This document shows positions 5,202 through 15,151 of a DNA stretch of 64,000 bases, piece after piece. Numbering within the stretch: the stretch's first letter is position 1; the number at the start of each line of letters is the position of its first letter. The stretch is taken from contig NZ_JAMFTH010000002.1 in the NCBI RefSeq assembly GCF_024195295.1, positions 248,001 through 312,000 of the forward strand, read 5' to 3'. A program made the translations under genes and the position numbers. This DNA comes from Gilvimarinus xylanilyticus (GTDB taxonomy: Bacteria > Pseudomonadota > Gammaproteobacteria > Pseudomonadales > Cellvibrionaceae). The notes beneath the pieces were generated by a model that saw only the letters and a list, made by a program, of their open reading frames with translations, ran no database searches and was not told the DNA's origin.

Positions 5202-8075
5202 ATGAAGATTATTAATAAAATATCTCTTGCCGCAGGCTTAGTCGCGGCCCTGGCCGCACCTCAGGGCGCTCTCGCACTGGGCGGCCCCAGCTTTATCAAT
5301 GACAAGCCAAACGACGGAGACTTTCAGCTCGTGCATCGCAATCATAGTGCGCCCCTGCTGCACTATGCCCAAGCCGATGCTGCAATCAAGATTGCGCTGC
5401 AAAACCTGCAAGCTGATATTGAACGAGTCAGCAACAAGCGCCCCTCGCTAACCACCCTGAAGCAAGCCAAATCGCCTCTTAAGCAAGCGGTCATTGCCGG
5501 ACAAATCGGCACCAATCCACTGATCGACAAACTCATTGCCGAGGGAAAACTGGATACCGAGAGCATCACCGGGCGCTGGGAAGGCTACGTGATTCAGACT
5601 GTCGACCAGCCGACCGAAAATATTGACCAAGCGCTGGTCATCGCCGGCACCGACAGGCGCGGGGTGGCCTACGGGATCTACGAGATCAGCGAGCAAATTG
5701 GTGTTTCACCCTGGTATTGGTGGGCGGATGTGCCGGTACACAAACGCGACAATATCTACCTGGATGGCGACCTGAAAATCGCCGATTACCCCGACGTGAA
5801 ATACCGCGGCATCTTTTTAAACGATGAGGCGCCCGCTCTCACGGGCTGGGCCCAGGAAAAATTCGGTGGTTACAATCACGAGTTTTACGAAAAAGTATTC
5901 GAGCTGTTAACGCGCCTGAAGGCCAACTATTTATGGCCCGCCATGTGGAACAACGCCTTCAATGACGACGATCCGCTGAACATGGTGCGCGCCCACGAAT
6001 ACGGCATTTTTATGGGCACTTCACATCACGAACCGATGATGCGCGCCGATAAAGAATGGAATCGCTACGGCGAGGGCCCCTGGGACTATGAGCGTAACCC
6101 CGAAAAGCTGTACGACTTTTGGGTAGAGGGCGCGAAACGCAACAAACCCTACGACTCCATTTATACGTTGGGTATGCGCGGTCAGGCCGACACCCCCATG
6201 AGTGACGAACAGAATATTGGCCTGCTGGAAAAAATTGTCACCGATCAGCGCGAGATTTTAGACGACGTTTTCGACCGCGACTTAAGCGAGATTCCCCAGG
6301 TCTGGGCACTGTATAAAGAGGTGCAAGGTTATTACGAAGACGGCATGCGCGTCCCCGATGATGTGACCCTGCTGTGGGCCGACGATAACTGGGGCAATGT
6401 CCGGCGCCTGCCTACACCACAAGAACGCGAGCGCGAGGGCGGTGCCGGGGTTTACTACCACTTTGATTATGTGGGCGGGCCGCGTTCCTATCGCTGGATG
6501 AATGTTACCCCCATCGCCAAGATTTGGGAGCAAATGAATCTGGCCGACGCGTTCGATGCGAAAAAGATTTGGATTGTTAATGTCGGCGACTTAAAACCGC
6601 AAGAATTCCCCACCGAATTCTTTCTGCGTATGGCGTGGGACCCAAGCGACTGGCCCAAAGAGCGTTTGGAGGAATTCAGCCAGCTTTGGGCCGAGCGCGA
6701 GTTTGGCGCCGAATACGCCGCCGACATTGAAGATATCATCACCGGCTATACCCGGCAGAATGGTCGCCGCAAACCCGAGCTGATGAGCCCGGATACCTAC
6801 AGCCAACTAAACTACCGCGAGGCAGACCGCATCAGCGCCGAGTTGAACGGGCTGCTGGAAAAAGCCGAGTTGCTTTACGGGAAAATTCCAAAACAACATC
6901 AGGATGCCTTCTTCCAACTGGTGTTACACCCCATTAAAGCGACCACCATCATTCACGAGCTGTACAGCAATACTGCCAAAAACCGTCTTTACGCGGAGCA
7001 AGGCCGGGCTAATGCCAATGAATATGCTGAGCGGGCAAAAGAGTTGTTTGCCGCCGACGCCGCCTTAAGCGAGCGCTACCACAGCATTAATGACGGCAAG
7101 TGGAATCACTTTATGAGCCAAACCCACATTGGCTACACCCACTGGAACAATCCACCCGCGAATACCCTGCCGGTAACCTATCGCTATCAGCCCCACGATA
7201 AGCCCGATATGGGTGTGGCCGTTGAGGGACAGGCACAGAGCTGGCCCGCCACCAGCAACCTGGCGCTGCCCGAGTTCAGTCCCTACGGCACGACCAGCCA
7301 TTACATCGACGTTTATAACAAGGGCACCGCTCCGTTCAACTTTACGGCTGAAGCCAGCGAGCCCTGGATTAGCATTAGCCAAACTGAGGGCGAAATTACT
7401 GGCACCCAACGCCTGCGCGTCAGCATCAATTGGCAAGAGGCCCCTGTAGGTCGCCATACCGGACACGTCTTTGTCAAAGGCACCGGCTGGGGCGGGGCAA
7501 AAGTTCAGGTCGAGTCATTCCTACCCGAGTCCGACATCCGGGCTGAGGTCAAAGGTTTTGTAGAGGCGAATGGTGTTGTGGCCATCGAACCGGCCGACTA
7601 CGCTCGTAAACAGTCAGCGGACGGTATCGAGTGGCAGGAAATTCCGCTCCACGGTCACACCGGCTCGTCCATGTCGACCTTCCCGGTCACCGACACCAGC
7701 TTCGAGGATTTAGAACACGCGCCTTGGGTAGAATACGATTTCTATCTGTTTAGCGCGGGCGACATTAGTGTCAAAGGCATTTTCGCACCCAGCCTTAACT
7801 TTGTTCCCGAGCGCGGCCTTCGCTATGCAATTGCGATTGACGACCGGCAGCCGCAGGTGGTGGACATTCTCAGCGACCTATCTCACCAAGCCTGGCAAGA
7901 GGCGGTACGCCAAGGCGCCCGTAAAACCACAACTCAACACACCATAGAGAAGCCGGGTCCTCACACTCTGCGTATTTACGCCATCGACCCGGGTGTAACC
8001 CTGCAAAAGCTGATTATCGACAACGGTGGTTTAGAGCCCAGCTATCTGGGCCCAGAACCCAGTTACCGTCGTTAA
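5202..8075 (+). CDS. GH115 xylan alpha-1,2-glucuronidase
   Basis: Removes (4-O-methyl-)glucuronic acid side chains from xylan, the debranching step before backbone degradation. The 957 residues are a normal GH115 length. A signal peptide (residues 1-25, ending PQGALA) points to export to the periplasm or outside. The N-terminal alpha/beta domain contains VIAGTDRRGVAYGIYEISE (about 147-165). The TIM-barrel core contains YRGIFLNDEAPALTGW (about 201-216), LWPAMWNNAFNDDDP and MGTSHHEPMMRADKEW. The C-terminal beta-rich GH115_C domain follows from about residue 780 (FEDLEHAPWVEYDFYLFSAG). A terminator follows the gene. It lies near xylA/xylB and other xylan genes, which fits glucuronoxylan use. Family assignment is secure; substrate is by family. 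Confidence 0.95.
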   Translation: MKIINKISLAAGLVAALAAPQGALALGGPSFINDKPNDGDFQLVHRNHSAPLLHYAQADAAIKIALQNLQADIERVSNKRPSLTTLKQAKSPLKQAVIAGQIGTNPLIDKLIAEGKLDTESITGRWEGYVIQTVDQPTENIDQALVIAGTDRRGVAYGIYEISEQIGVSPWYWWADVPVHKRDNIYLDGDLKIADYPDVKYRGIFLNDEAPALTGWAQEKFGGYNHEFYEKVFELLTRLKANYLWPAMWNNAFNDDDPLNMVRAHEYGIFMGTSHHEPMMRADKEWNRYGEGPWDYERNPEKLYDFWVEGAKRNKPYDSIYTLGMRGQADTPMSDEQNIGLLEKIVTDQREILDDVFDRDLSEIPQVWALYKEVQGYYEDGMRVPDDVTLLWADDNWGNVRRLPTPQEREREGGAGVYYHFDYVGGPRSYRWMNVTPIAKIWEQMNLADAFDAKKIWIVNVGDLKPQEFPTEFFLRMAWDPSDWPKERLEEFSQLWAEREFGAEYAADIEDIITGYTRQNGRRKPELMSPDTYSQLNYREADRISAELNGLLEKAELLYGKIPKQHQDAFFQLVLHPIKATTIIHELYSNTAKNRLYAEQGRANANEYAERAKELFAADAALSERYHSINDGKWNHFMSQTHIGYTHWNNPPANTLPVTYRYQPHDKPDMGVAVEGQAQSWPATSNLALPEFSPYGTTSHYIDVYNKGTAPFNFTAEASEPWISISQTEGEITGTQRLRVSINWQEAPVGRHTGHVFVKGTGWGGAKVQVESFLPESDIRAEVKGFVEANGVVAIEPADYARKQSADGIEWQEIPLHGHTGSSMSTFPVTDTSFEDLEHAPWVEYDFYLFSAGDISVKGIFAPSLNFVPERGLRYAIAIDDRQPQVVDILSDLSHQAWQEAVRQGARKTTTQHTIEKPGPHTLRIYAIDPGVTLQKLIIDNGGLEPSYLGPEPSYRR

Positions 8076-8102
8076 GAACCCTGGAGCAACCTCAGGAAGC
8101 TT

Positions 8103-8136
8103 ACCCCGGTCGGAGCAATCCACCGGGGTTTTTTTT
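8103..8136 (+). terminator. Rho-independent terminator after GH115
   Basis: The stem ACCCCGGT / ACCGGGGT has an 11-13-base loop and is followed by eight T residues (8129-8136). It ends the GH115 transcript before the lipoprotein gene. Confidence 0.85.
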
Positions 8137-8190
8137 GCGTTACTTGCAGCTATACTGAATAAAATAAGGCAAATCGCAAACGAGGTCATC

Positions 8191-8646
8191 ATGGTAAAGA
8201 CAACTCACAGCTTACTCCCCCTCACCACAACCGCTTTATTCGCTGCAGCCATAACCGCCTGCAGCACCACAGGCGGCCCCTCCACTAATGTATCCAGCTT
8301 GCTGTTAGACGCTACCGGACAAAATGGCCGCGCCTGCCTGGACGTCAAAGATATTCGCGGTTATGGGGTGCTGGACGGCGATGTCATCTCCATTAACACC
8401 AATCGTGAATACTACCTAGCAACGGTACTACCAGGATGTATGGATTTGCAGATGTCGACCCACGCCATGTTCAAACAGCGCTTTGGTGAAATTTGCGGAG
8501 GCGGTATGGACAGTGTCAGAACAGGGGGTGATAACTGCACCATTCGCAATATCTTTGAATTTGAAAACCGCGAGAGTGCCTTTGCGGTTCACGACCAGGT
8601 CATGGAAAAACAGGCCGAATTAAGAGAGGCCGCCAGAGCTCAGTGA
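8191..8646 (+). CDS. DUF6491 family lipoprotein
   Basis: A 151-residue protein with a lipoprotein signal (lipobox ITAC, Cys24). The mature part has the DUF6491-like pattern CLDVKDIRGYGVLDGDVISI and four further cysteines (in PGCMD, ICGGG and NCTI among others), which could form disulfides. The start has GAGG nine bases upstream. The family is common in Gammaproteobacteria and its function is unknown. The stop codon overlaps the convergent response-regulator stop by seven bases (8640-8646), so the two genes share their 3' ends. Confidence 0.75.
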   Translation: MVKTTHSLLPLTTTALFAAAITACSTTGGPSTNVSSLLLDATGQNGRACLDVKDIRGYGVLDGDVISINTNREYYLATVLPGCMDLQMSTHAMFKQRFGEICGGGMDSVRTGGDNCTIRNIFEFENRESAFAVHDQVMEKQAELREAARAQ

Positions 8647-9089
8647 ACTCGGGTATTCAGTTTTAACCAGTAGTGACTGACATCCTGTAAAAGCTGCGCA
8701 AACTGGTCAAATCCCAGCGGCTTTTGCAGGTAACTGTTTACTCCCAGCGCGTAGCCCTCTTCGATATCGGCGTTCTCGTCCGACGTGGTTAAGAAAGCAA
8801 TGGGGGTATGGTGGTAGGCGGCCGACGAGCGCAGCGCGCGCAGTACATCAAAGCCGTTAAGTTGCGGCAGATCGATATCCAAAAGCACCAATGCCGGTTT
8901 GCGATAATCGGGGCGATCACAGTAGCGCCCCGAGGCGAACAGAAAATCCAATGCCTCTTCGCCATTGGCCACTATCTGCAAGTCGTATTCAGCATTCAGG
9001 CGAGCAAAAGCCAACTCAGCCAGCTCCGCCTCATCGGCATTATCTTCAACCAGTAATATCGTTTCCCTGATCACGGTCCGTTTTCCCAT
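8640..9089 (-). CDS. CheY-like response regulator (Rcp1 type)
   Basis: A stand-alone receiver domain of about 149 residues with no output domain. Hallmarks are ILLVEDNADEAELAELAF (acidic pocket), LVLLDIDLPQLNGFDVLRAL (phosphoacceptor Asp), IAFLTTSDE and SYLQKPLG (conserved Lys). The VEDNADE opening and long beta4-alpha4 part resemble the Rcp1 class that pairs with phytochrome-like or bacteriophytochrome kinases. Its start lies inside the 3' end of the kinase gene: the ATG at 9089 is chosen, a GTG at 9074 is possible. The 44-base overlap suggests translational coupling, so the kinase upstream is the natural phosphodonor. Confidence 0.85.
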   Translation of the reverse strand: MGKRTVIRETILLVEDNADEAELAELAFARLNAEYDLQIVANGEEALDFLFASGRYCDRPDYRKPALVLLDIDLPQLNGFDVLRALRSSAAYHHTPIAFLTTSDENADIEEGYALGVNSYLQKPLGFDQFAQLLQDVSHYWLKLNTRVH

Positions 9090-10617
9090 CCCAGAAAGTG
9101 AAATAAAAGCTGGCCCCTTTTCCGGGTTCAGCCTCTGCCCAAATTCGTCCTCCATGGCGGGCGACAATACGCTGCACTGTCGCCAAGCCAATGCCTATTC
9201 CCTCGAACTCTGAGGCTTTATGCAGGCGGGTAAAGGGCGAAAACAAGCGCCCCGCATACTTCATGTCGAAACCCGCGCCGTTATCGCGCAAAAAGAATTG
9301 CCGCTCACCATTGTCAGCGCTCTGACAACCAAACGCAATACGCGCACACGCTTCGCGGGCGGTATACTTCCAGGCGTTGTGCACCAGGTTATCCACCAGA
9401 ACCGCAAGGAAACGATGATCTGCCTCGACCACTACGCCATCTTCAATGGTAAGCTCCACACGGCGTTCAGGCTCTAGCGCGCTTAACTGCGCAAAATAGT
9501 GTCGCACTAATGCCGATAAGTCCACCTGACTGATATGCAGCTCGCTCTGGGTGGCGCGCGACAGCTGCAAAAAACTATCGATCATTTCGCTCATCTCTTG
9601 CGCCCCAGACTCCATTCGCCCCAGGTAGTGTCGCTGTTGCTCGTTGCACCGCTCTTCGATCTGTTCCGCGAGAATCCGGCGAAACCCTTCGATCCGCCTT
9701 AGCGGGGCACGCAAATCGTGAGAAACCGAATAACAAAAGCTGGCTAACTCACCATTGGCCGCTTCAAGCTCTGCCGTGCGCTGTTTAACTCTCTCCTCCA
9801 AAACCGCATTTAAGTGCTTTACCTCTTCCTCAGCGCGACGCCGCGCCACAATATCATCGGCCAGGGCCTGATTGACCTGGCGCATATGTTCGTAAGCATC
9901 CTCGAGTTTCGCGGTTAGGGCATTGAACGAGGTCACCACCAGATCCAGCTCATCCGGGTGGCTACGACGATCTCGCGCAAGCGTTAGAGGACTGGTTTGA
10001 TCAATATTGTAATCACTTAAATACTGCGCAATACGACCTAGGTGAACAGCCACTAACCGGTAAAACACATAGAGAATAAACAATGACACCAGAAAGGTTT
10101 TAACCCCCTGACTCAAAAGGATAACAATCGCTTTATCCCACAGGCGGGCATACACTTGAGTCAACGACGCCTCAACCCTCAGTATGCCGATTGTGCGGCT
10201 ATCCTCGGCAAAGGTATGGGTAATGGCGTATTCGCGTACAATCGCACTTTCGGCCTCGAATTTCCCCAGCTCAATCTTCAGGGGCTTGCTCACCGCGTTC
10301 CCCACCTCATACACAGCGACTGAACTAACATCGGGCAAATGGCGAATCCCTTCCAGCTGTAATTTGAGCTGGCTCACATCCAAATTCCAGAGACTGGCGC
10401 TAATACTGGCCATATAGCTGCTATCAATGTCTGCCAAGCGGCTTTTTATTAAGCTTACATCGCGTTGATAGTCGGTTAGCAGCTGCACGGCAGTAGCGAC
10501 AAGCGTCACCACAGAACTAAAGACAATAATACTGAGCAGGAGACGCCGACCGATCCCATGCCGCTTGAGTGCTTGTTTTAAATAGTCCCACTGGTAGCCC
10601 GAACCGAGCAGCTGCAT
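9046..10617 (-). CDS. Membrane sensor histidine kinase
   Basis: A 523-residue inner-membrane kinase. Two transmembrane segments (about 25-46 and 165-190) frame a periplasmic sensor domain. A HAMP-like linker and coiled coil (about 235-290, with VKHLNAVLEERVKQRTAELE) follow. The dimerisation helix has H300 in SVSHDLRAPLRRI, the ATP-binding part has LVDNLVHNAWKYT (N box), RDNGAGFDMKYAG and GIGIGLATVQRIV. The H-box type (SHDLRAPLR) is that of bacteriophytochrome-like kinases. It is the middle gene of a leftward operon, nine bases after a periplasmic binding-protein gene and overlapping the response regulator. The binding protein may deliver the ligand to the sensor domain. Confidence 0.92.
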   Translation of the reverse strand: MQLLGSGYQWDYLKQALKRHGIGRRLLLSIIVFSSVVTLVATAVQLLTDYQRDVSLIKSRLADIDSSYMASISASLWNLDVSQLKLQLEGIRHLPDVSSVAVYEVGNAVSKPLKIELGKFEAESAIVREYAITHTFAEDSRTIGILRVEASLTQVYARLWDKAIVILLSQGVKTFLVSLFILYVFYRLVAVHLGRIAQYLSDYNIDQTSPLTLARDRRSHPDELDLVVTSFNALTAKLEDAYEHMRQVNQALADDIVARRRAEEEVKHLNAVLEERVKQRTAELEAANGELASFCYSVSHDLRAPLRRIEGFRRILAEQIEERCNEQQRHYLGRMESGAQEMSEMIDSFLQLSRATQSELHISQVDLSALVRHYFAQLSALEPERRVELTIEDGVVVEADHRFLAVLVDNLVHNAWKYTAREACARIAFGCQSADNGERQFFLRDNGAGFDMKYAGRLFSPFTRLHKASEFEGIGIGLATVQRIVARHGGRIWAEAEPGKGASFYFTFWDGKTDRDQGNDITG

Positions 10618-10626
10618 ACTCTAATC

Positions 10627-11352
10627 CTAAAAGTAATATTCTGATTTGATCCGCTCGATAACCCCTTCGGCCTTCATGTCCATCACGGCGCGATTAAGGG
10701 CGGGCAGCAAATCCAGGTGGCGGGATTGACGCGAGCACTGCAACGTCAATGGCACATCCCCCAGCTTTAGCGGTTTACCCAGGGCACCCGCCAAACCATT
10801 TTTTTCCGCCAAGTACCGCATCGTAGGAATGGCTCCGGCAACGGCGTCCACCCTTTGGCGATCCAGCTTGCGCAATGACATCAAATAGTTTGTATCGTAA
10901 ACCTTCTGAAACGTCACGTCGGCATCAAAGCGCGATGTAATAGAGGCGCCGCGCAGCACCGCCACCTTTTTCCCCTTTAGCTGACTATAGTCATTCAGGG
11001 TAACGTCACGGGCGGGGATCACCCCAATATCATGTTCACCCACCACCTCGCCTCTCACGACCATTTCCTCAGGGCGCGGTATCAAAATGGTGCAATCGTG
11101 CCCCCCCAGCTCCAGCTCGCGATCAACACGTGCGAACGGCGTCAGGGTAATACTCAAATCGGCATCTACCCGGGCATCTAACTCTTTTACCATTTCCGCA
11201 AAAGCTCCCCGAATCTCACCAGACTCTGAATCCTGCCAGCCCCAGGGTGCCACCTGAATAGAAATAAACTTTAAGGTTATGGGCTCAGCCAGCGCGTGCT
11301 GGGAGAACATCCACACCCCCACCAGTAAAAGTCCTCGCAACAACAGTGTCAT
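10627..11352 (-). CDS. Periplasmic solute-binding protein (SBP_bac_3 type)
   Basis: About 241 residues with a signal peptide (MTLLLRGLLLVGVWMFSQHALA) and the two-lobed amino-acid-binding-protein fold: GAFAEMVKELDARV and GKKVAVLRGASITSRF in lobe one, RQRVDAVAGAIPTMRYLAEKNG at the hinge. No permease or ATPase gene lies nearby; the next gene, nine bases on, is a histidine kinase. A role as extracytoplasmic sensor feeding that kinase is therefore more likely than transport (inference). Start: the ATG at 11352 has GAGG upstream and begins a normal signal peptide; an upstream ATG at 11406 would add 18 residues. The ligand is unknown. Confidence 0.8.
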   Translation of the reverse strand: MTLLLRGLLLVGVWMFSQHALAEPITLKFISIQVAPWGWQDSESGEIRGAFAEMVKELDARVDADLSITLTPFARVDRELELGGHDCTILIPRPEEMVVRGEVVGEHDIGVIPARDVTLNDYSQLKGKKVAVLRGASITSRFDADVTFQKVYDTNYLMSLRKLDRQRVDAVAGAIPTMRYLAEKNGLAGALGKPLKLGDVPLTLQCSRQSRHLDLLPALNRAVMDMKAEGVIERIKSEYYF

Positions 11353-11417
11353 ACCTAACAGTCCTCGCACGTTCAATCTTTTAGATTCTAGACACATTTC
11401 ATCCACCCAGTCGCTGC

Positions 11418-11432
11418 TTAACAGGCTGTTAA
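11418..11432. promoter_or_regulatory. 15-bp perfect dyad in a divergent promoter region
   Basis: TTAACAG-G-CTGTTAA lies in the gap between the leftward sensor operon and the rightward AfsA/HAD genes, about 66 bases upstream of the binding-protein start. It could be an operator for either unit. A related dyad (CTAGCAG-G-CTGCTAG) occurs twice near 17.2 kb, so it may instead be a general short repeat. Confidence 0.35.
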
Positions 11433-11591
11433 ACCCAATGCGAATAGTGGCCGTTTCACCCAGGCCAGATATAACTAAAGAGCCCTCTGCAGATTCAGTG
11501 GCGTTGCTATTGCTACGGCATTGGGCGGTGTCTGTGTCTTTTCGACTCAGGCCAAATGTAACACATTCTCATCACTTATATAGGTAACTCT

Positions 11592-12386
11592 ATGAACTCA
11601 CGTATTATGTTAGTAGTCAGCGATAAATTCTCTTCATTCGCTCTGGGCAAAGACGCCATTACCGTCTCTCAGCTCAAGGGGCTGATGGCCCTTCCCCACG
11701 ACTTATTGCCTTTTACCGGACGCGTTAGGCTCGTTCCCGGGCAAGGCATGGGAGATCAATGCATAGCTGACATTCTCCTTATGGCCTCGCGCTTGGATCG
11801 TCACGCTAAGTTTGACTTCAGCCTGTGGCAGCAAATGCCAAGCCGTGCCCCGCGAGAGATTACTCACAAACATCAGTTAGAGAACACTCTAATATCCACC
11901 CCGGTACAGATTGCTCAAGATCTCTACGAAATGCATTTTTTAATCGATGAAAATAGTGAGCTAATGAGCGATCACCAAAGTGGTCAGCACGTACAGGGAA
12001 TGCTACTGATAGAGGCGGTTCGACAAGCCACAGTGGCAATTACGGAACTGTTTTTTTTGACTCAGGCCGAAGGAAGTTTTGCTTTTGTGCTGAATAACAT
12101 GTCGGTTAAGTACAATAATTTTTCATTCCCCCTTCCGGCAAAAATCCAGTGCCGCATCAGCGATAAGTTAGTTGAACTTCCCAAGCGCCTTAATTTCAGC
12201 ATTGAAGCGGACGTAGTGCAGTGCGGCACCAGTGTCTCAACCCTTCACTTTGAAATAGCCGCGATGGATAAGGAGCGAATTTACAAGCAGGAGAATCGCC
12301 AGGCGCTAAAGGCACAAAAGGTTCATATGAGTCATTTTTTTGTGCAAACAGAAGATTCCCTGTCTGAAGCCACCCCTAGCGCCTGA
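11592..12386 (+). CDS. AfsA-like hotdog protein (A-factor biosynthesis family)
   Basis: A 264-residue cytoplasmic protein. Residues about 105-230 match the AfsA hotdog family, most clearly QHVQGMLLIEAVRQATVAI (His133, Glu141), which corresponds to the HxPGMxLxEAxRQ core of Streptomyces AfsA, and VLNNMSVKYNNFSFP. Streptomyces AfsA has two hotdog halves; here only the C-terminal one is obvious and the first 100 residues are not recognised. AfsA condenses a beta-ketoacyl-ACP with dihydroxyacetone phosphate on the way to gamma-butyrolactone signals. Eleven bases downstream lies a HAD phosphatase gene, which would suit the phosphate-removal step. Family membership is fairly clear; the product is inferred. 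Confidence 0.72.
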   Translation: MNSRIMLVVSDKFSSFALGKDAITVSQLKGLMALPHDLLPFTGRVRLVPGQGMGDQCIADILLMASRLDRHAKFDFSLWQQMPSRAPREITHKHQLENTLISTPVQIAQDLYEMHFLIDENSELMSDHQSGQHVQGMLLIEAVRQATVAITELFFLTQAEGSFAFVLNNMSVKYNNFSFPLPAKIQCRISDKLVELPKRLNFSIEADVVQCGTSVSTLHFEIAAMDKERIYKQENRQALKAQKVHMSHFFVQTEDSLSEATPSA

Positions 12387-12397
12387 GGAGAAAACTT

Positions 12398-13072
12398 ATG
12401 AAACCCCATAGAAGTTCACAACCCATGGCTTTTTTTGATGTCGACGATACACTGATTTCAGTTAAAAGCATGCTTAGTTTTCAGGATTTTTGGTATCAAA
12501 TCCATCCCCACCCTGAAGAACAAAAAGGCTACCGGGAAACTTTGCAACAAGTTTATTCCCCGAGCAGCTCTTGGGGCGACCTGAACCGACAGTATTATCA
12601 GTACTTTTCCGGTCGCCCTGTGGCAGAGGTGGAAAATGTAGCGCTGCAATGGTTTCAAAAAACCAGTTCTCAGCCAGGGTTTTATCACTCCCCTGTGGTA
12701 GACATTATGCACCGGCATAAACAGCGTGGGCACGAGTGTATTTTGGTCTCGGGATCATTTCCCTCACTGCTCGAACCTATAGCAGTCGAGTTGGGAGCTG
12801 ACCATATTCTCGCCACTCAGTTGGAGCAAAGCCTCGGTGTGTACACGGGTAAAATTATACCTCCGCAAACTATCGGAGAAGGCAAGGTGATCGCCATTGC
12901 CGATTTGTTGGCAAAACGGGGCATCGACAGAAGAACCTGTTACGCCTACGGCGATGATATTTCTGATCTTCCCATGCTGGAGTATGTCGGCTACCCTCAT
13001 GCGATCGCCGGGGGACGGCAACTGCAAGAGAAGGCTCGGAAAAATAGTTGGCCCATCATTTTACCGGTCTAA
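12398..13072 (+). CDS. HAD-IB family phosphatase (SerB-like)
   Basis: A 224-residue soluble HAD hydrolase with all four motifs: FFDVDDTL (nucleophile Asp14, acid Asp16), LVSGSF (Ser118/Ser120), Lys163 in GEGKVIA, and YGDDISDLPML (Asp186, Asp187, Asp190). A helical cap lies between about residues 20 and 105. Subfamily IB includes phosphoserine phosphatase and small-molecule phosphatases. A GGAG ribosome site precedes the start, and the gene is 11 bases after the AfsA-like gene, so the two are co-transcribed. Dephosphorylation of the AfsA-like product is the simplest joint function (inference). The true substrate cannot be read from sequence. Confidence 0.85.
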   Translation: MKPHRSSQPMAFFDVDDTLISVKSMLSFQDFWYQIHPHPEEQKGYRETLQQVYSPSSSWGDLNRQYYQYFSGRPVAEVENVALQWFQKTSSQPGFYHSPVVDIMHRHKQRGHECILVSGSFPSLLEPIAVELGADHILATQLEQSLGVYTGKIIPPQTIGEGKVIAIADLLAKRGIDRRTCYAYGDDISDLPMLEYVGYPHAIAGGRQLQEKARKNSWPIILPV

Positions 13073-13080
13073 AACCAACC

Positions 13081-13102
13081 CGCTCCCGCTTCTGCGGGAG
13101 CG
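13081..13102 (+). terminator. Hairpin after the AfsA/HAD pair
   Basis: CGCTCCCG-CTTCTG-CGGGAGCG is a perfect eight-base stem just after the HAD stop. There is no T run after it, so it may terminate weakly or protect the 3' end. Confidence 0.5.
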
Positions 13103-13255
13103 TCTAATCTGGGCAAGTCTCGCTATATCAATACGAATACAGACGCTACCTGCAGAAAATAATTCAGTCTAAACATTGGCTCTCGGCGGCCCTATCAGTA
13201 TTATGTACCGATATCACCTTAAAACCCAACAGGCCCTTCCGCCCTGAAACCGATT

Positions 13256-14056
13256 ATGCGCCCAGTATTGCCCCACTTGTTTGCAAGATTCAAACGCAGA
13301 CCACGAAATATTTTTCATCCTTTGTTCCTACCTAAAAAGCAACTAATGCTCTCGCTGTCAGCCAAATCGGGGTCGGTATTCGGGGCTAGCTGGCTCTTCT
13401 ATCATGCCGGCCTGGGAGATCAAGTTAAAAACCACCCTCGCTGGGTGCATAAATACCGTCAGGAAGTTTATTACCCCAGCCGAGAATACAAAAGCATATC
13501 GCGACAATTTTTCGCCATGCCAAGTGATTTTAAAAAAGTTAAAATAGTAAGAAACCCCTACGCTCGTGCCGTCAGCGCTTATCTTCATACGCTTAAAAGG
13601 CCCGAGCTTCTGCACAAAGACACTGCGGGTCAATTCAATCGAATGCAATACAGCTTTGCCGAGTTCATCGACACTTTAGAGCGCTTAGAGGGAAAAAACA
13701 TTGACCCTCATTACAGTCCGCAAACCTACGATTTCGAACGCCATGCCAAATGGAGTTACGATTGGATTATTCAACTGGAATCGTGCACCGAACAGCTACG
13801 CGAGCTTGAGTGCGCCATGGACTTAGGTGCCTCACCGCTAGAGGAATTTCGCGAATCGAAGCATCATTCTAAGCGACGCACAAACAGCGATAAATTTGTC
13901 GGTCACACCTCGTACCGTTCGGGGAACATCGCTCACAGTGCTTACCCATACTTTTACAATCGCGACCTTGTTCAGCGGGTACATAAGCTCTTTAAAGACG
14001 ATTTTTCACGCTACGGGTACAGTGACGAGCTAGAACTTCCCCACAGTGGACGATAA
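13256..14056 (+). CDS. Sulfotransferase family 2 protein
   Basis: A 266-residue protein of the carbohydrate-sulfotransferase-like family, transferring sulfate from PAPS to an acceptor. The 5'-phosphosulfate loop is SAKSGSVFGASWLFYHAG (about 35-52) and the 3'-phosphate site is IVRNPYARAVSAYLH (Arg99, Ser107). The C-terminal end FSRYGYS is typical of the family. No signal peptide or membrane segment is evident. It lies 183 bases after the HAD gene, beyond a hairpin, so membership of that transcript is uncertain. It could modify a small molecule, polysaccharide or capsule sugar. The start at 13256 lacks a strong ribosome site; a downstream start is possible. Confidence 0.75.
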   Translation: MRPVLPHLFARFKRRPRNIFHPLFLPKKQLMLSLSAKSGSVFGASWLFYHAGLGDQVKNHPRWVHKYRQEVYYPSREYKSISRQFFAMPSDFKKVKIVRNPYARAVSAYLHTLKRPELLHKDTAGQFNRMQYSFAEFIDTLERLEGKNIDPHYSPQTYDFERHAKWSYDWIIQLESCTEQLRELECAMDLGASPLEEFRESKHHSKRRTNSDKFVGHTSYRSGNIAHSAYPYFYNRDLVQRVHKLFKDDFSRYGYSDELELPHSGR

Positions 14057-14071
14057 GCAACTAAACGAAGG

Positions 14072-15151
14072 TTAAAACTGCCGCCCCAGACCCATTGGCA
14101 TATTTAAGGTAAAACCAAGCCAAGCACGGTCATCATCGGTAACACCCAAACCTAGGCCAAACTTTATCGTCTGCGACTTCCAAGGGTACACATTTACCCT
14201 CAGCTTGAGCGCTTCGGTACCATTGTAGATAACCGACCAGAGTAAATTACCATCACGATCGCCAAATACCCCCAAGCTAGGACGGGACTCATAACGCAGC
14301 ACGCCGCTGCGATAATAAATTCGGGTAAGCGCAATACCCGCTCCCCAGGACAATGTATTGCCGCCACTTAGAGAGTGCGATAAGCCCACCAGAGAGTTCA
14401 TTCCCATATAGACAAAAAACTCAGTGCTATCAAAGCTGAGAAACTGCGGGCGTACGACATAATTAATGCCGGCGTTGCGCAAAGTATCGGAGCTGGGGTC
14501 GTAGAAGATCAAATGGGGCCAGACCTCGGGCTGCAAGTGCTTCTCGATATACGCCGCTCGCTCATCATCCGCAAACAACCAGACACCAAGAGGGCGAAAG
14601 ACATAGAAATCCGCGATCGGGTCGTCGTCTGTTGAGGTTTTCTTCTCCACCGCCTCCTGAGACAGCTCAGAGGCTAAGGCGGTGGCAATAGCCGCAAACT
14701 GCGGATAGCGATAACCATGCGCACGGTAGTATTCCAGATCGCGGCGATAAACCACCCCTCCGCCAAAAAGGTGCAACGCATAGTTTGGCAAGGCTGTGGG
14801 CCAGTCGCGGGCATAGTCAGAATCGTAGGGCAAGAGTTGGCGATTGATAAAACGTCCCCAGCCGCCTTCGTCCTGAATGGCGGCGTCAGGGTTACCCAGC
14901 TCATCAAACAGCTCATTAAAGCGATCACCCAAATTATGCTGATCGAAGTTGTCGGGCATTTGCAGGGTGTCGAACGCGTAATGCGAAAAGCTGTTTAATG
15001 GGTTGTATAACGCATCCGCCCCCTCTTGTGATGCGCGATAGTAATCAGCCCGAGCCTGAGGAACGAGACACACGCATGCAATGAGCGCGGCAAGCGCAAA
15101 TCCACAACAGGCAGCGCTTGCTATCGCCTGGGCAAGTGGGAGTACAGGCAT
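14072..15151 (-). CDS. Unknown exported protein, probable outer-membrane barrel
   Basis: A 359-residue protein not recognised as a characterised family. A signal peptide (about residues 1-35, ending VPQARA) and a C-terminal stretch of alternating hydrophobic strands ending LNMPMGLGRQF suggest an outer-membrane beta-barrel. The middle part is soluble and includes ALHLFGGGVVYRRDLEYYRAHGY and FYVFRPLGVWLFADDERAAY. The gene converges on the sulfotransferase gene, 15 bases apart. Nothing in it indicates an enzyme. A function in envelope or lipid handling is possible but unsupported. Confidence 0.6.
   Translation of the reverse strand: MPVLPLAQAIASAACCGFALAALIACVCLVPQARADYYRASQEGADALYNPLNSFSHYAFDTLQMPDNFDQHNLGDRFNELFDELGNPDAAIQDEGGWGRFINRQLLPYDSDYARDWPTALPNYALHLFGGGVVYRRDLEYYRAHGYRYPQFAAIATALASELSQEAVEKKTSTDDDPIADFYVFRPLGVWLFADDERAAYIEKHLQPEVWPHLIFYDPSSDTLRNAGINYVVRPQFLSFDSTEFFVYMGMNSLVGLSHSLSGGNTLSWGAGIALTRIYYRSGVLRYESRPSLGVFGDRDGNLLWSVIYNGTEALKLRVNVYPWKSQTIKFGLGLGVTDDDRAWLGFTLNMPMGLGRQF

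Follow-up and report, generated by a model that had tools for sequence, protein, structure and literature searches.

A conserved gene unit joining an AfsA-type enzyme pair, a periplasmic sensor and a cyclic di-GMP enzyme in Gilvimarinus and its relatives: a candidate butenolide-type signalling system

In Streptomyces, AfsA-type synthesis is expected to include a dephosphorylation step, and butyrolactone receptors lie inside the cell. The synthases of that genus, AfsA, ScbA and BarX, share with the protein considered here a PF03756 hotdog carrying a DH...HV-x-GM...E-A-x-RQ motif. Descriptions of butyrolactone synthesis come mostly from actinobacteria, and in Ruegeria pomeroyi both killing and the transcription of most of the cluster that contains afsA depend on this gene (PMC7426152); a proteobacterial AfsA can therefore act in regulation. 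The ScrABC system of Vibrio parahaemolyticus is presented (PMC11315295) as a signal synthase, a periplasmic binding protein and a GGDEF-EAL protein that changes the level of cyclic di-GMP (c-di-GMP). In this work, we analysed a stretch of 64,000 nucleotides of Gilvimarinus xylanilyticus (contig NZ_JAMFTH010000002.1, positions 248,001 to 312,000; hereafter the window), where an AfsA-related gene and a HAD-IB phosphatase gene lie divergently to an operon coding for a solute-binding protein (SBP), a histidine kinase and a receiver. The AfsA–HAD pair, the sensor and a c-di-GMP enzyme that has been displaced from the window constitute a real, conserved unit, and it is well supported that its parts work together. 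A quorum-sensing loop based on a butenolide is, at somewhat better than even odds, the best reading of this unit.

The AfsA-related gene, coding for a single-hotdog protein and proposed to be the signal synthase, extends over positions 11592..12386 (+ strand) and includes HVQGMLLIEAVRQ. It matches PF03756 with 57.2 bits (curated cut-off 24), over residues 92-221 only, and is the sole PF03756 match in the 3.93 Mb genome. The HAD-IB phosphatase gene (12398..13072, + strand; TIGR01490 138.8 bits, cut-off 98.3), proposed to dephosphorylate the product, starts 11 bases past the AfsA stop, and its DxDxT motif is present in 23 of 23 aligned sequences. Across a divergent intergenic region of 185 bases (11407..11591), the proposed receptor, a putative periplasmic SBP resembling the family-3 type (10627..11406, - strand), has an N-terminus resembling a signal peptide by eye; taken alone, it scores 23.3 bits with Pfam SBP_bac_3, under the cut-off of 26.4. 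The operon continues with a membrane histidine kinase harbouring a periplasmic CHASE5 domain (9046..10617, - strand; CHASE5 73.9, HisKA 47 and HATPase_c 70.7 bits), the HDLRAP motif of which is found in all 18 aligned kinases, and with a stand-alone receiver (REC) protein (Response_reg 62.1 bits), whose open reading frame as listed (8640..9191, - strand) overlaps the kinase gene, the true start probably being further in. Among the eight genes scanned between 8191 and 15151, two of which have no known function, neither a transporter domain nor a TetR-type domain, as in ArpA/ScbR-like receptors, was detected. The sequence-only reading that preceded this analysis had singled out the hotdog gene by its core sequence, the phosphatase 11 bases on and the divergent operon devoid of transporter genes, and had remarked that a single hotdog half sets the protein apart from AfsA; these descriptions hold, the protein showing one PF03756 stretch preceded by 90 residues without Pfam match.

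The conservation of these genes was first considered within the family Cellvibrionaceae, where PF03756 was sought in 144 genomes, that of the window included, and the other 27 neighbourhoods were compared. A match occurs in 28 genomes, representing 12 of 32 genera. At 18 other loci (L032-L049), the AfsA protein is 37-69% identical to that of the window, the nearest named one being from Gilvimarinus chinensis (69%), and the HAD gene is directly next (43-56%). SBP and kinase genes lie divergently to the AfsA–HAD pair in 17 of these 18 loci, which bears out the conservation that the sequence-only reading had proposed as its own test; the eighteenth locus, L040, opens with AfsA itself, and SBP and kinase genes are present elsewhere in that genome, at 143-146 kb of another contig. 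In addition, a gene of about 700 residues is convergent to HAD in 18 of 18 loci (17 complete, one cut by a contig end), and that of L041, the one of the 18 that was domain-scanned, codes for a REC-PAS-GGDEF-EAL protein. The GGDEF motif is present in 16 of 17 aligned enzymes and replaced by GGDEY in one. With regard to the divergent intergenic regions, no shared DNA motif emerged, since no 9-mer occurs in more than 3 of 18 regions.

Searches for each part gave the same distribution. SBP orthologues of at least 142 bits are present in 19 of the 144 genomes, the next best match reaching 72 bits (at E 0.001, the search reports 40 genomes, of which the 21 beyond these 19 score no more than about 72 bits). 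Kinase orthologues of at least 378 bits are likewise found in 19, with 261 bits and 35% identity for the next (25 genomes listed at E 1e-60, the best 10 candidates per genome being scored), and a REC-PAS-GGDEF-EAL orthologue at E <= 1e-150 is present in 19 and in no other genome at that level, among the best eight candidates scored per genome. The direct AfsA–HAD pair, the SBP, the kinase and the c-di-GMP enzyme occur in an identical set of 19 genomes, eight from the genus of the window and the rest from five genera, with a Fisher test of co-occurrence at 4e-24 that ignores common descent. This shared distribution indicates that the grouping is not due to chance.

The other nine family genomes with AfsA genes have no SBP orthologue (best 21.8 bits). 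In three of them (G023, G080 and G032), AfsA is part of an open frame 1057-1105 residues long, with a HAD gene after it; these frames of more than 1000 residues (L029, L030 and L031) are reminiscent of polyketide synthases (PKS), in which the domain may serve in chain release. The remaining six loci (L050-L055) carry short AfsA genes, with a HAD homologue nearby in four, namely, separated from AfsA by one or two genes in L051 (G125), L053 and L055, and directly adjacent in L054.

In the window's genome, the REC-PAS-GGDEF-EAL gene is situated not after HAD but on another contig (G000:C9:101761-103827). Its product comprises REC, PAS, GGDEF and EAL domains and is 71% identical to that of the G. 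chinensis locus L041, compared with 37-41% for the next best paralogue. Genes found 3' of the c-di-GMP gene in Gilvimarinus relatives adjoin this copy, and for this reason we conclude that a rearrangement has severed the older neighbourhood just after HAD. The sequence-only reading thus missed one part of the unit, the c-di-GMP enzyme, which is displaced from the window.

For a survey beyond the family, a collection of species genomes was scanned with the AfsA alignment, and 80 of 81 relatives were kept; many of these 80 loci are the family genomes again, and the motif is partly conserved by construction, the scan patterns having been derived from this subfamily. The E-x-x-RQ end was not part of these patterns, and a regular expression with E-x-x-RQ fits 79 of the 80. 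Judging from matched domains, HAD follows AfsA within 450 bases in 37 loci, at 450-1700 bases in 36 and further away in three, and was not seen in four. The neighbours in these 80 loci were identified by means of profiles derived from the family loci. In 15 of the 80, AfsA lies near SBP, kinase and c-di-GMP enzyme together; three more have SBP and kinase (two Kiloniella and one Rhodospirillales metagenome-assembled genome (MAG)), one has kinase and c-di-GMP enzyme (Ferrovibrio, where an SBP gene about 300 bases upstream is under the cut-off), and one the c-di-GMP enzyme alone (L094, at a contig edge). In Azospirillum, Kiloniella, Ferrovibrio and an alphaproteobacterial MAG, four or five parts recur, but their order or strand differs: in Azospirillum TSO22-1 (L082), where all five are present, the SBP is encoded on the opposite strand, and in the MAG (L086), also with all five, the c-di-GMP gene comes after the kinase gene. 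The Kiloniella kinase is of the CHASE5-PAS-HisKA-HATPase_c type. Genome-wide, the SBP profile gives 347 bits in Azospirillum, 333 in the MAG, 352 in Kiloniella and 134 in Ferrovibrio, scores that are partly due to construction because these genomes contributed rows to the profile; additional SBP homologues score up to 124 bits in the MAG and up to 80 bits in Kiloniella. In the Azospirillum family, AfsA is present in 2 of 82 genomes, too few for a co-occurrence test.

A quick tree of 79 AfsA rows (L135 and L136, with broken or short frames, were left out) places all 21 rows bearing the sensor, whole or in part, in one group of 26 (SH-aLRT 94); long branches meet elsewhere in this tree. Sensor presence requires two changes over 78 rows, L099 also being left out of this count as its locus starts 558 bases before AfsA. 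The sister group (32 rows, support 97) includes Ruegeria, Halomonas, Vibrio, Serratia, Erwinia, Photorhabdus and others, and shows HAD at 450-1700 bases after AfsA in 31 rows, HAD being not seen in one. The AfsA relatives of R. pomeroyi from Ruegeria sp. and Shimia fall in this sister clade, outside the sensor clade. Several gene rows may be mentioned in their own right. In Serratia and Vibrio (L104:7356-10326 and L116:7378-10483), a gene of about 205 residues, AfsA, a gene of about 280 residues and HAD follow one another, and the R. pomeroyi row resembles it; two proteins of each size were scanned and had no Pfam match. On plasmid pFiD188 of Rhodococcus fascians (L160:1422-3097), a ScbA/BarX-type gene has a HAD phosphatase gene immediately after it, an arrangement shared with the proteobacterial pairs.

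What is directly observed comprises the genes and their motifs, the co-occurrence in the family and the recurrence in Alphaproteobacteria; we put at roughly 0.58 the probability that the unit is a self-contained signalling system, in which a butenolide-type signal would be made and perceived by a dedicated periplasmic receptor acting on c-di-GMP, the switch for biofilm and motility. By analogy with its family, the AfsA protein would join dihydroxyacetone phosphate (DHAP) to a beta-ketoacyl thioester supplied by fatty acid synthesis, yielding a phosphorylated butenolide. The neighbouring HAD-IB phosphatase would supply the dephosphorylation step, stripping the phosphate so that the molecule could leave the cell. 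As the operon structure and precedent suggest, the SBP would then bind the molecule in the periplasm and the CHASE5 domain of the kinase would read the complex. Domain composition and co-occurrence further suggest that the kinase would hand phosphate on to the REC-PAS-GGDEF-EAL enzyme, at its REC domain, and to the small receiver where present, and would thereby set the c-di-GMP level. A PKS-borne AfsA domain is reported to condense a 3-ketothioester with DHAP in vitro, the product being observed after phosphatase treatment (PMC7756379), which makes DHAP condensation a fair guess for this subfamily, not more.

Several observations weigh against such a loop. No sensor part lies near AfsA in 60 of the 80 wider loci, of which L096, L099, L103, L106, L113, L128 and L141 have flanks too short for absence to be demonstrated. 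Five of the 26 AfsA rows in the sensor clade itself (L084, L089, L090 and L092, plus L099, whose locus is too short for a verdict) show no such sensor, and the SBP profile finds nothing above 30.2 bits in the genomes of L084, L089 and L092. A search at E 1e-110 for relatives of the c-di-GMP enzyme gave none of full length in either of the two Kiloniella genomes, and the Ferrovibrio MAG has no good HAD match (best 28 bits). Within the family, L054 (G055) has AfsA and HAD directly adjacent (28% and 34% identity) with no sensor, and the AfsA of G125, 38% identical to that of the window, has no sensor and an extra gene before HAD. Since the most distant sensor-bearing AfsA proteins, those of L040 and L042, are 37-38% identical, identity alone does not separate the two kinds; on the tree, the G125 locus (L095) falls in the sister clade. 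A lone receiver homologue adjoins the kinase in only 7 of the 17 loci where that side is visible, the window included. The co-occurrence is uncorrected for common descent, its cut-offs were chosen after the gaps were visible, and the search for SBP genes without AfsA covered the family genomes only.

Among the sensor-less rows of the clade, we noticed a PAS-PAS-HisKA-HATPase_c-REC hybrid kinase near AfsA–HAD in the Telmatospirillum-type loci L084, L089 and L092 (at about 5600-11700 in each), where the receptor may have been swapped, and a weak kinase match of 24 bits at L090 5385-7124.

The foremost alternative, which we regard as unlikely, is that the sensor reads an outside cue, such as a nutrient or host compound, and controls AfsA and HAD as producers of an antibiotic or another secreted metabolite, in one direction and without an autoinducer loop. 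Divergent regulator–enzyme pairs often work in this one-way manner, and the SBP is related to amino-acid-binding proteins: a profile of its relatives (A4) hits amino-acid-binding SBP structures with a best E of 8e-20, including glutamine/arginine-binding proteins. However, in the gapped alignments, the Asp that presumably holds the amino group of the ligand in amino-acid-binding proteins falls at a gap or at a place occupied by Gly or Ala, or in two rows Val, and never by Asp in 23 SBPs; the place of the Arg that presumably also holds the amino acid varies. This may point to a ligand other than a common amino acid. The confinement of SBP and c-di-GMP orthologues, within the 144 family genomes, to those possessing this AfsA would also be unexpected for a general nutrient sensor. 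Evidence on both sides comes from R. pomeroyi DSS-3, whose megaplasmid AfsA-related protein, which we take to be SPOA0342, likewise has one hotdog and falls in this subfamily (44% identity across 80% of the query), with a HAD-IB gene downstream. The need for this gene in killing competitors fits a secreted metabolite, whereas its own requirement for transcription of the cluster speaks against one-way control (PMC7426152). As a separate observation on the receptor genes, tandem SBP genes precede the kinase at L042:1684-3166, L049:7558-9096 and L076:3853-5329.

The AfsA protein itself brings further reservations about the butenolide loop, and with them another alternative, in which the hotdog protein is a lipid dehydratase or thioesterase and the HAD protein a general phosphatase, the pair modifying envelope lipids while the sensor monitors the envelope. 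Against solved structures, the AfsA profile hits only FabZ-type dehydratases (E 1.9e-5). There is one PF03756 stretch, whereas three ScbA-type proteins encoded on actinomycete plasmids have two apiece, and the N-terminal 90 residues, apart from having no Pfam match, do not align to the first ScbA hotdog, which has its own Glu; they resemble those of the Ruegeria protein. The NF041195 model (ScbA/BarX equivalog) gives 25.7 bits for a cut-off of 200. With one hotdog, no counterpart of the first and so low a score, the reaction may differ from that of ScbA. We nevertheless hold the lipid explanation to be improbable, given that the Pfam search at E <= 0.001 returns AfsA alone and no FabA/FabZ family, and that profile-profile comparison with hhalign places residues 90-218 on the second hotdog of the three ScbA-type proteins (probability 96.4%, E 1.2e-9), with the E-A-x-RQ motif in register. 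Moreover, 73 of the 80 relatives have a HAD gene no more than 1.7 kb past AfsA, as AfsA chemistry would need. An alignment of the window protein with 41 of the 80 relatives leaves H128, H133, E141, R144 and Q145 unchanged in all 42 rows. In the sequence-only reading, the lack of the AfsA active-site Glu was part of one refuting outcome; that of the second ScbA-type hotdog is retained as E141. From its sequence, we classify the protein as not of the ScbA/BarX kind, albeit with the Glu/Arg-Gln motif preserved, and by family analogy a butenolide would be its product.

It is very improbable that the genes are adjacent by common descent only, with no joint function. Within Gilvimarinus some flanking genes are conserved too, and eight of the 19 genomes come from that single genus, as this explanation would have it. 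Between genera, however, the flanks vary while the arrangement, with SBP and kinase divergent and the c-di-GMP gene convergent, stays constant; Alphaproteobacteria keep the parts despite altered order or strand; and the c-di-GMP gene has been retained in the window's genome after its displacement. Correlations between distance matrices (AfsA–HAD 0.93, kinase–EAL 0.83, HAD–SBP 0.30, kinase–SBP 0.25) would be produced by common descent alone, and no co-divergence is deduced from them.

A sulfated product, as envisaged in the sequence-only reading, can practically be set aside: the next gene (13256..14056, + strand) does code for a sulfotransferase on the same strand (Sulfotransfer_2, 46 bits), but it starts 183 bases past HAD, with a stem-loop between, has no homologue in the 27 other family neighbourhoods and is beyond the rearrangement point. 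For the same gap, stem-loop and missing homologues, we place it on the other side of the cut and reject it as a unit member. The stem-loop, of nine pairs and situated 3' of HAD (13081..13102), is terminator-like on the - strand and constitutes weak evidence, the region having two such sites for a shuffle mean of 2.1. Just past the sulfotransferase, 14072-15151 codes for a protein of 359 residues that matches nothing in Pfam or NCBIfam. On the other flank, upstream of the sensor operon, a gene of about 957 residues (window 5202-8075), which by eye may be glycoside hydrolase-like, is found in five Gilvimarinus genomes including the window's (the others being L032, L037, L038 and L041).

Compared with the AfsA/ScbA/BarX synthases, the window protein has one hotdog and another N-terminus, and scores below the NF041195 cut-off. 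In place of a receptor of the ArpA/ScbR type, the locus has a binding protein and a kinase. Binding proteins read by a membrane signalling protein, as proposed here, are known from LuxPQ and from NspS-MbaA of Vibrio cholerae; these systems have other ligands, belong to other protein families and are not known to include a synthase. In R. pomeroyi, LysR regulators and an MFS transporter accompany the row hypothetical – AfsA – hypothetical – tautomerase – HAD-IB. In Chromobacterium subtsugae, AfsA-related hotdog and HAD-IB genes are side by side, as here, in an operon that differs by a hypothetical protein, a DUF2165 protein and a MarR regulator, and the accessible part of the report mentions no sensor of this kind (PMC12114271). 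Although proteobacterial AfsA genes are known, the literature found has little on their role beyond the roseobacter killing cluster and PKS-borne domains, and a search of open-licence publications did not find an AfsA-family gene joined with such an SBP–kinase pair or with c-di-GMP. Through conservation, the unit names a likely receptor and a likely output, which makes the proposal directly testable, on the ligand of the SBP and then on c-di-GMP. If true, it would link hormone-like lactone chemistry with the biofilm switch of bacteria from marine and soil habitats. Among working models, ScrABC comes closest, as it also brings together a synthase, a binding protein and a GGDEF-EAL output (PMC11315295). 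However, ScrA is an aminotransferase, and ScrC an inner-membrane GGDEF-EAL protein read directly by the binding protein, whereas in the Gilvimarinus unit a CHASE5 kinase stands between the SBP and a GGDEF-EAL enzyme starting with REC, which sets it outside the ScrABC type. We tentatively propose, at a little short of even chances, that the unit represents a class of quorum sensing not described in the publications searched, in which a two-enzyme AfsA-type signal would be perceived by an SBP and a CHASE5 kinase and converted into a c-di-GMP output in Gamma- and Alphaproteobacteria.

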